Below, one piece after another: positions 27,330 through 31,389 of a stretch of 64,000 nt of DNA. Numbering within the stretch: position 1 is the stretch's first letter; every line of letters starts with the position of its first letter. Origin of the DNA: Deferrisomatales bacterium (GTDB taxonomy: Bacteria > Desulfobacterota > Deferrisomatia > Deferrisomatales > JARGFW01); contig JARGFW010000001.1 of NCBI GenBank assembly GCA_029211085.1, forward strand, positions 1 to 64,000. Direction: 5' to 3'. The position numbers and the translations under genes were made by a program. The notes under the pieces were generated by a model. That model ran no database searches. It had not been told where the DNA came from and saw nothing but the letters and a program-made list of their open reading frames with translations.

Positions 27330-27495
27330 GTTCCTCGTCTCCTCGCTTCCTGTGGACTCGGCCTCCCGCCCGTCGGGTGCCAGTGTGCCACGCCGCCGGC
27401 CATCGGCAAGGGGACCAACGCCGGCATTGCCATCGGCACCATATGCCGTACATTGGCAGGGTCAAAAGGGGGTTCCGGGAACCGGGAGGTGCACC

Positions 27496-27927
27496 ATGCA
27501 AGAACTTCGCTTTCGCAAGATCCTGTTGCCCGTGGACGGTTCCGAGGCATCCGCCAGGGCGGCCGAGGTGGCCGGCGGAATGGCCTTGGCGTCGGGGGGA
27601 GAACTGCTGCTGCTGCACAGCCACAAGCACATCGCCGACTTCATCGGCGAGCCCTACTACCAGCACCTGCTGGATCGCCTACGGAGCGAAACCCGCGCCC
27701 TGCTGGCACCCTACCGCGAGCGCCTGGACGCCGCGGGGGTGCCTTACGACGAGCGGGTTATGGACGGCGACCCGGCCCAGGACATCTGCACCGTCGCCCA
27801 GGTGGAAGACTGCGACCTCGTCGTTATGGGGCGCCACGGCGCCGCCGGGGTGGCCGGCCTGTTGCTGGGCAGCGTGAGCCACAAGGTCGCGGGTCGCGCC
27901 CCGTGTCCGGTGCTGACGGTGCGGTGA
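27496..27927 (+). CDS. Universal stress protein (UspA family)
   Basis: 'RKILLPVDGSEASARAAEVAGGMALASGGELLLLH...DLVVMGRHGAAGVAGLLLGSVSHKVAGRAPCPVLTVR'. Confidence 0.93.
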   Translation: MQELRFRKILLPVDGSEASARAAEVAGGMALASGGELLLLHSHKHIADFIGEPYYQHLLDRLRSETRALLAPYRERLDAAGVPYDERVMDGDPAQDICTVAQVEDCDLVVMGRHGAAGVAGLLLGSVSHKVAGRAPCPVLTVR

Positions 27928-28156
27928 CGTACCGCCGTCCGGCATGGGGCAGGGGGATGAAAGAGGCGATGCGCCTGGCCATTGCTCCGGATTCTCCACG
28001 GCTTGTGGAGCAAGAGCTCGGGGGTGCTTCGCGTCTTGCGCGGCGCTTCAGCATAGGCATCCGTGTCCGTTGAGAAGGAAATCTTTTTGACGGTTCTGTG
28101 CTCCACTGATAGATGGCAGCGGGAGGGCTGTAAGGGCTCTGGCTGCCCTCCCCACC

Positions 28157-28786
28157 TTGGAGGAAACCATGCTTGCCTTTTCCCGCGGGACCCTAGTCAC
28201 CATGCTGCTGGGCGTGATCGCGCTGTCCATCCCGTCCCCCGGAAACACGGGAGATGCGGGTCTGGAAGACTGTATCTACGATGTTGGAAAACTGTCAGCA
28301 AGGGATAGTCAGGCAACGCTGAAGGTTGGTGAATCCGCACCTGAGTTCAGTTTGCCTGAGCTTTCCGGGGAGAGCGTTTCGCTCAGCAAGTTTCGTGGCA
28401 AGAAGAACGTGGTGATCTCCTTTGTCCCCGCTGCGTGGACCCCCGTGTGTTCGGCGCAGTGGCCCCAATACAACGATGCTCGAAAGGTTTTTGAAGAGCA
28501 TGACGCTGTCCTGCTCGGTGTGACCGTCGACAACATCCCAACCCTTTATGCGTGGACAAAGCAGCTGAGCGCAGACGGCGCCGGATTCTGGTTTCCCGTT
28601 CTCTCTGACTTCTACCCACACGGTGCCGTGAGCGAGCGGTATGGGGTGCTGCGTTCCAACGGCACCAGCGAGCGAGCGTTGTTCGTGATCGACAAGGAAG
28701 GGGTGATCCGCTACCTGGAGGTGATGGATATAAACCGCCTCCCCCATTTCGCCCGTATCGAGAAAGCACTCGCTGGCCTCCATTGA
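28157..28786 (+). CDS. Peroxiredoxin (AhpC/TSA family) with N-terminal signal/TM
   Basis: 'LKVGESAPEFSLPELSGESVSLSKFRGKKNVVISFVPAAWTPVCSAQWPQYND'. Confidence 0.88.
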   Translation: MEETMLAFSRGTLVTMLLGVIALSIPSPGNTGDAGLEDCIYDVGKLSARDSQATLKVGESAPEFSLPELSGESVSLSKFRGKKNVVISFVPAAWTPVCSAQWPQYNDARKVFEEHDAVLLGVTVDNIPTLYAWTKQLSADGAGFWFPVLSDFYPHGAVSERYGVLRSNGTSERALFVIDKEGVIRYLEVMDINRLPHFARIEKALAGLH

Positions 28787-28897
28787 GCACTCCCGTACAC
28801 ACTCTCTCAGTACCCCGATTCAGCAATGGCCGCAGAGGGATTGTGAAGCACGCTTTTCCAACCCCCACCGAACGCAGTGGAAAGACAGATAGACAGG

Positions 28898-28999
28898 TTG
28901 GGCCGCCAAGGCGCCGCCGGGGTCACCGGACGGTTGCCGGGCAGCGTGAGCCACAAGGTATCGGGGCGCACCCCGTGTACGGTGCTGACAGTGCGGTAA
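28898..28999 (+). pseudogene. Universal stress protein 3'-end relic
   Basis: Translates LGRQGAAGVTGRLPGSVSHKVSGRTPCTVLTVR*, near-identical in pattern to the C-terminus of the intact USP at 27825-27927; similarity continues ~35 nt past the stop. Confidence 0.85.
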
Positions 29000-29113
29000 A
29001 CGACTGCCGTCCGACGTGGGCCAGGGGGAGAGGGAGTGGGAGGCCACTTCCCCAAGCTGAGGACCACGTGCGCCCGGGCCCACGGGAATCGGTCTGGCTC
29101 CACGGAGACCAGG

Positions 29114-29668
29114 TCAGTCCATCCAGCCCTTTCCGATCGCCGTGAACGGCAGCTCCAGGCCCAGTTCCGGAACCTGTTGAGCCACCCAGGCGGTGAAGGT
29201 GTTGCTGTTGGGGCCGGGCCACACCCTGTAGGTGTCCGCCCACGGGTAACTCCGTGCGGCAGAGTCCACCGCCTCGATCAGACCGTCGACACCTTCTCCC
29301 CGGCGGTCCAGCAGCAGTTCAGGGCGCTCGCCAAACCAGTAACGGTCCGGGTGGTCTCGCGCGATCCGCACCACCGCCAGCCCGCGCCGTTTCCGCCAGC
29401 CGATCACCTCGTAGACCGTGTACTCCCGCTCATCGGTGTGCTTGGTGGCGATCCAGGTGTGGACCGCGAACCAGCCGCGCCACCCGTAGGCCGGCGCTCC
29501 GTAGACCTGCAGCACAGCTTCCGAAATCCTTTGGGGGTCCGGTGCGATCCCCGCCGGCTCACGGCTGGCTGTTCGCCAGTCGCTGGAGTTGCAGGCGCAG
29601 GTGAGCAGGGCGACCACGATCACCACGCCAAACCTACAGCCCCCTGATCTCCACCACCTCTCGGGCAT
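29114..29668 (-). CDS. DUF3750-like lipoprotein/secreted protein, possibly C-terminally truncated
   Basis: 'VYGAPAYGWRGWFAVHTWIATKHTDEREYTVYEVIGWRKR...SYPWADTYRVWPGPNSNTFTAWVAQQVPELGLELPFTAIGKGWMD'; lipobox-like 'LLTCAC'. Confidence 0.7.
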   Translation of the reverse strand: MPERWWRSGGCRFGVVIVVALLTCACNSSDWRTASREPAGIAPDPQRISEAVLQVYGAPAYGWRGWFAVHTWIATKHTDEREYTVYEVIGWRKRRGLAVVRIARDHPDRYWFGERPELLLDRRGEGVDGLIEAVDSAARSYPWADTYRVWPGPNSNTFTAWVAQQVPELGLELPFTAIGKGWMD

Positions 29669-29942
29669 TCCCGACAGCATCTGTGCCTCCAGTTCGTGTT
29701 TTTTGATTCGAGCGCTCAACAATGGTAGCAACGCCTGGCGGCGTTGTCATACCAGGGCAAGCCGATCGCCTGGGAGAAGAACGCCACCCGGCGGAAAGGG
29801 ACCAGGATGCACAGGCCATGGGGAGTGGGTCTGGCAGTGTACGACCGACAAACGCATCGGAGAGGACACGAGTATCGGCGCTGCAACCGGAAGAGTACCT
29901 CAGGCAGAGGTGAGAGATGGAATGCAGATCACGACGTACAAC

Positions 29943-30091
29943 ATGGCGAAGCTCCACTTGCGCAGAATACAGCTACCAACGGACCTGGCTCCAAGGCATC
30001 TTTCCGCGCGGCCGAAGCGGCCGGCTGGCAGGCCCTGGCGTACAGCGGGGAAGTGCGGGGGCACGTCCCGTGTCCGGCGCTGAAGCTGCGG
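29943..30091 (+). pseudogene. Universal stress protein relic with internal deletion and frameshift
   Basis: MAKLHLRRIQLPTD / GSKASFRAAEAAGWQALAYSGE / VRGHVPCPALKLR aligns to MQELRFRKILLPVD-GSEASARAAEVAGGMALASGGE...VAGRAPCPVLTVR. Confidence 0.75.
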
Positions 30092-30579
30092 TGCGCACGG
30101 AACCGGGGCGACGATCGGCACCCCCTGGGACCCCGGCGGTTATCGGGTGCCGGCTTGACCCTTCACCTGCGCGGGAGGTAAGACTAGCGGCGTTGGGCTG
30201 GCCCATGGACCACAGGTGGAAAATGCCTCAGCCGGAGGGAAGACAACCGCGCCGCCGCCCTCTCGTCAATGGGGTGCACCTCGCTGACGGCAGCACCCGG
30301 CCGCAGGTTTCCATGGGCCCGCCACCGTAACGCGGAGCGAGGCAGTGCTCGCAGGATCGGGTCCGACAATCGCCCGCGAAATGCCTGCACGCTGCCTGTC
30401 TTGGCTGCTGCTGCACGCAGGAGGCGCCTTGCAGTATCCTGCAAACGGGTATCCGCGCAGACAGGGCACTCGACCCCGTCGGCGCTGAAGTTGCACGGCC
30501 TCCCGAATGCTGATGGCAGGAGTTCTTTGGGTCATGGCAACCGAGCAGCGTGCACCCTTGCGGGGTGAAGAAGGATCCC

Positions 30580-31389
30580 ATGCGCCTTAGAGGCTCCCTG
30601 GCAGTGTTCGCTGTGCTGCTCTCCATCGGCATCTTCGGGTTCATGTCCGTGGAGAACTTTTCGCTGATAGATGCGATCTATTTTTCCATCGTGACCATGG
30701 CAACCGTTGGATACGGAGACATCCACCCGCAGACCGACATCGGCAAGCTGCTGGCCCTGATCATCATCGTAGGTGGTGTCGGAACCTTTCTGGGGGTGAT
30801 CGCCAGCATTACGGATGTGTTGGTCAATCGCCGAGAGGAGACGCGCAGACGCCAGAAGCTCGACATGGTCACGGGTCTGTTCTTCAGCGAAATGGGGAAT
30901 GAACTGCTGAAACGCTTCACCCATATGGACCCGGAAACGGAAACGCTCCACCACATTCTCGAGATTTCGTCGGAATGGAAGAGTCGGGACTTCGAAAAGG
31001 CTCGCAAGGCCCTGAGGAAGTACCACCTTGTCGTGGATTCCCGCCGTGGAGATATGCCCGCGCTGAGGGACTATCTGCAGCAGAAGGCAGAGTTGCTCTT
31101 ACGATTGATCGAAAACCCCGCGATTCAGGAACATGAGAACTTCACGGATCTGCTCCACGCGGTCTTCCATCTGCGCGACGAATTGATGCATCGCAAGGGT
31201 TTGCCGGCGTTGGCGGACGCCGACCGGAAACATCTTGAAGGAGACGTTGCGAGAATCTACAAGCTGTTGATCTTCGAGTGGTTGCGATACATGCAGTATC
31301 TGAAGGGAAGTTACGGGTACCTCTTTTCTTTGGCGCAGCGCACGAACCCGTTCGATCCGGAGGCAGATGCCGCCGTCGAAGAACCTTGA
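30580..31389 (+). CDS. Two-TM potassium channel family protein with helical cytosolic C-terminus
   Basis: Selectivity filter 'TMATVGYGD' between two hydrophobic helices. Confidence 0.88.
   Translation: MRLRGSLAVFAVLLSIGIFGFMSVENFSLIDAIYFSIVTMATVGYGDIHPQTDIGKLLALIIIVGGVGTFLGVIASITDVLVNRREETRRRQKLDMVTGLFFSEMGNELLKRFTHMDPETETLHHILEISSEWKSRDFEKARKALRKYHLVVDSRRGDMPALRDYLQQKAELLLRLIENPAIQEHENFTDLLHAVFHLRDELMHRKGLPALADADRKHLEGDVARIYKLLIFEWLRYMQYLKGSYGYLFSLAQRTNPFDPEADAAVEEP

Follow-up and report, generated by a model that had tools for sequence, protein, structure and literature searches.

Does the DNA downstream of an intact universal stress protein (usp) gene in a Deferrisomatales bacterium hold decayed copies of that gene and, if so, how many and of what origin? 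The window, a stretch of 64,000 nucleotides covering positions 1 to 64,000 of contig JARGFW010000001.1, comes from a genome assembled in 470 contigs with 8.5% estimated contamination. A sequence-only reading of the locus had proposed an intact usp, two relics and a possible fourth remnant, produced by repeated tandem duplication and decay or by domain-level recombination. The features on which the question turns are as follows.

27496..27927, plus strand: intact usp gene encoding 143 aa; Pfam PF00582 (Usp), 7.5e-33.
28169..28786, plus strand: peroxiredoxin (AhpC/TSA) gene between usp and relic 1; PF00578, 9e-34.
28899..29029, plus strand: relic 1, a usp copy reduced to its 3' end (codons 111-143 and stop) with about 26-30 nt of downstream flank; 84% identity to 27827-27957.
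29114..29731, minus strand: complete DUF3750 gene between the relics; PF12570, 6e-50, profile positions 2-128 of 128.
29933..30093, plus strand: relic 2, in which the start region and first 37 codons of usp are joined to its final 12 codons; it has a 2-nt insertion near 29985, lacks about 283 nt internally and has lost the stop.

The intact gene is what it had been taken to be. Its product aligned with essentially the whole Usp profile (2-141 of 141) at 114.5 bits, against a curated cut-off of 24, and thus carries the full-length domain of this single-domain family. The motif G-2X-G-9X-G(S) is present in the sequence as GRHG...GS, and GC3 of the gene is 86%. Blastn of 27400-30600 against the window returned significant similarity to this gene for two relics, and no background segment scored as high. 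Relic 1 matched 27827-27957 with 84% identity over 131 nt (E 4e-35), and the match continued beyond the usp stop codon into flanking DNA, as the sequence-only reading had noticed. Its local score was 89, compared with a maximum of 23 among 1509 background segments of the window, and its z score against dinucleotide shuffles was about 50. Codons 1-110 are missing from this copy. The remainder carries 15 substitutions in 34 codons, distributed 5/3/7 over codon positions 1, 2 and 3; the stop has changed from TGA to TAA, and GC is 71.8% versus 77.1% in the source stretch.

Relic 2 has a more complex structure, and the proposed joining of an N-terminus to a C-terminus by internal deletion and frameshift agrees with the alignments. 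Blastn paired 29987-30041 with 27538-27592 (74.5% identity) and 30058-30093 with 27891-27926 (83%). Gapped alignment widened the front part to 29933-30056 against 27486-27607, with the 2-nt insertion, such that homology begins about 10 nt upstream of the ATG; from the start-codon region through codon 37, identity to intact usp is 66%. Scores of the front and tail were 38 and 24, compared with background maxima of 23 and 21 among window segments, and z scores against dinucleotide shuffles were about 18 and 7, respectively. The terminal TGA has become TGC.

Both relics therefore show homology to an intact parent well above chance together with disabling lesions, namely truncation in relic 1 and insertion, deletion and a lost stop in relic 2. 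Their Pfam matches are partial, fall at the ends of the Usp profile, and reach 21.2 and 17.5 bits against the cut-off of 24; the match of relic 1 spans profile positions 109-141 (E 4.6e-4). Relative to family PF00582, both lack most of the domain and are unable to encode a USP. Judged from these lesions, the relics are very likely functionless, with the intact usp doing the work. Relic 1 does keep an open frame across the conserved GxxG-9X-GS motif, which could be read as a sign that the fragments still act, for instance as RNA or in the form of short peptides. Such retained function is highly improbable, as relic 1 is without its first 110 codons and has suffered L-to-R and L-to-P changes within the motif spacer, and relic 2 is frameshifted and has no stop. 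Bacterial pseudogenes derived from redundant gene duplicates are a known class, and the locus shares with them truncation, frameshift, internal deletion, stop loss and an intact parent nearby. It is an instance of ordinary duplication followed by decay, peculiar only in that a single parent has two such copies of unequal age next to it.

A fourth copy near 30440-30500 did not withstand comparison with the intact gene. The segment scored 10 against usp, a value equalled or exceeded by 229 of 300 shuffles and 1311 of 1511 background segments, and a Pfam scan of it gave no match. Against the tail of relic 2 there was a marginal 34-column gapped match ranking 4-15 of 2016 depending on scoring, a rank uncorrected for the stretch having been picked by eye. 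The segment is consequently rejected as a usp remnant with respect to the intact gene and relic 1, and is marginal and unproven with respect to the relic 2 tail. The approximately 450 bp directly downstream of relic 2 (30094-30550) contain no recognizable gene and may be further eroded sequence. In a search of the genome for more relics with 27480-30580 as query, the only match outside the query was 66 nt long and fell within a different, likewise intact usp on contig C46.

Where did the two copies come from? When each relic was compared with every usp locus fetched, whether from this genome or from relatives, its best match other than itself was the adjacent intact gene. Relic 1 is identical to it at 25 of 32 residues, versus 17 of 32 for the nearest orthologue (in genome G006); for the relic 2 front the corresponding values are 22 of 37 and 13 of 37. 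The relics share with the intact gene 8 and 11 residues that differ in G006. Of 15 gene-relic differences at which one of the two matches G006, 14 have the G006 residue in the intact gene, so that change fell on the relic by 14 to 1. This polarity, along with the closest relationship to the adjacent gene, suggests that both relics are copies made in this lineage and carry derived changes. Judged by sequence, then, they look like lineage-specific copies of the neighboring usp. Repeated duplication and decay is thus supported for two copies but not for a fourth, and there is no evidence that domain-level recombination produced the relics.

The copies differ in their divergence from the parent. 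By the NG86 method, dS and dN were 0.24 and 0.11 for relic 1 and 1.1 and 0.30 for the relic 2 front, estimates that are rough given alignments of 32-48 codons and a dS near 1 that approaches saturation. The inequality in dS suggests two duplications of different age. The excess of silent changes in relic 2 further suggests that it diverged as a working paralogue under constraint before decaying, with the proviso that the intact gene's own branch accounts for part of this constraint. Unequal ages, and the foreign-looking genes nearby, might also be expected if one or both fragments were xenologues received by horizontal transfer from the usp of a related strain rather than duplicated in place. 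We consider this unlikely, since no usp locus fetched is closer to either fragment than the adjacent gene, which is nearby and shares their strand.

The genes interspersed with the relics were correctly recognized as peroxiredoxin and DUF3750 genes by the sequence-only reading, and Pfam matches identify both; the suspicion that the latter is truncated is at odds with coverage of its whole profile. The peroxiredoxin gene has a GC of 57.8% and a GC3 of 68%, compared with a window GC of 68%. Its matches within the order fall below 40% identity, and closer homologues occur in 103 of 395 phylum genomes sampled (about a quarter), the best at 65-66% identity. None of the best homologues elsewhere has a usp like this one within 1.5 kb on either side. 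Low GC and the absence of a close homologue in the order suggest that the gene was probably acquired horizontally and inserted between usp and relic 1. A K+-channel-like gene (Ion_trans_2) at 30580-31389 has a GC of 55% versus 68% for the window and was possibly acquired too.

The position of this GC-poor, apparently foreign gene exactly between the paired 131-bp segments (27827-27957 and 28899-29029) raises an alternative origin for relic 1, in which the pair is the footprint of site-specific integration at the usp 3' end and a peroxiredoxin-bearing element left a duplicated gene end. The repeat does span the end of a gene, and gene 3' ends often serve as attachment sites. This origin is nonetheless quite unlikely. 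Peroxiredoxin is the only known Pfam domain between the repeats, and the approximately 940 bp separating them hold no other recognizable gene and are too short to accommodate an integrase as well. Moreover, an att core of 131 bp at 84% identity would be unusually long and diverged, and relic 2, lying outside the repeats, would require a separate duplication anyway.

In their present arrangement the copies do not form a tandem array, in which copies would be adjacent and head-to-tail with no genes between them. The peroxiredoxin and DUF3750 genes, which are unrelated and one of which is on the opposite strand, separate them, so that a tandem origin is presumptive; the copies would have to have been adjacent at first. 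The relatives returned for comparison are no closer than the same order. Four of these have usp orthologues at 43-54% identity, none flanked by the window's neighbors but set in other neighborhoods, and relatives of the order showed neither a second close copy of this usp nor a piece of one. When the relic region was searched in 59 relatives, matches were confined to the DUF3750 part, and a plasmid search likewise gave DUF3750 only among the matches listed. A usp search of named genomes found only distant usp genes (28-40% identity), mostly of haloarchaea.

Collectively, we favor with good confidence a history of serial local duplication of usp in which the copies turned into pseudogenes and eroded, with gene gain in between. 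The homology of the relics, their extent and lesions, their closest paralogue and the direction of change were directly established; the succession of events would have run as follows. Extra usp copies at this locus would have arisen in the lineage through two or more duplications that differ in age, and would have been inactivated once redundant. Relic 2, the older copy, would first have diverged while protein-level constraint still held, and would afterwards have suffered the loss of its middle, a frameshift and the loss of its stop. Relic 1, the younger, would have had its first three quarters removed or replaced, leaving the 3' end and flank. The GC-poor peroxiredoxin gene would later have been placed between intact usp and relic 1, probably by insertion.

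It is also conceivable, although very unlikely, that small foreign genes (the peroxiredoxin and perhaps also the K+ channel) repeatedly land at the 3' end of usp by recombining with usp fragments; the relics would then be scars of gene gain and not of decay alone. The main use of these results lies in annotation, where the two fragments are best labeled as parts of pseudogenes, and peroxiredoxin and DUF3750 as intact genes. With two fragment ages beside one parent, the locus provides a small, clean example of the stepwise loss of redundant stress-protein copies.
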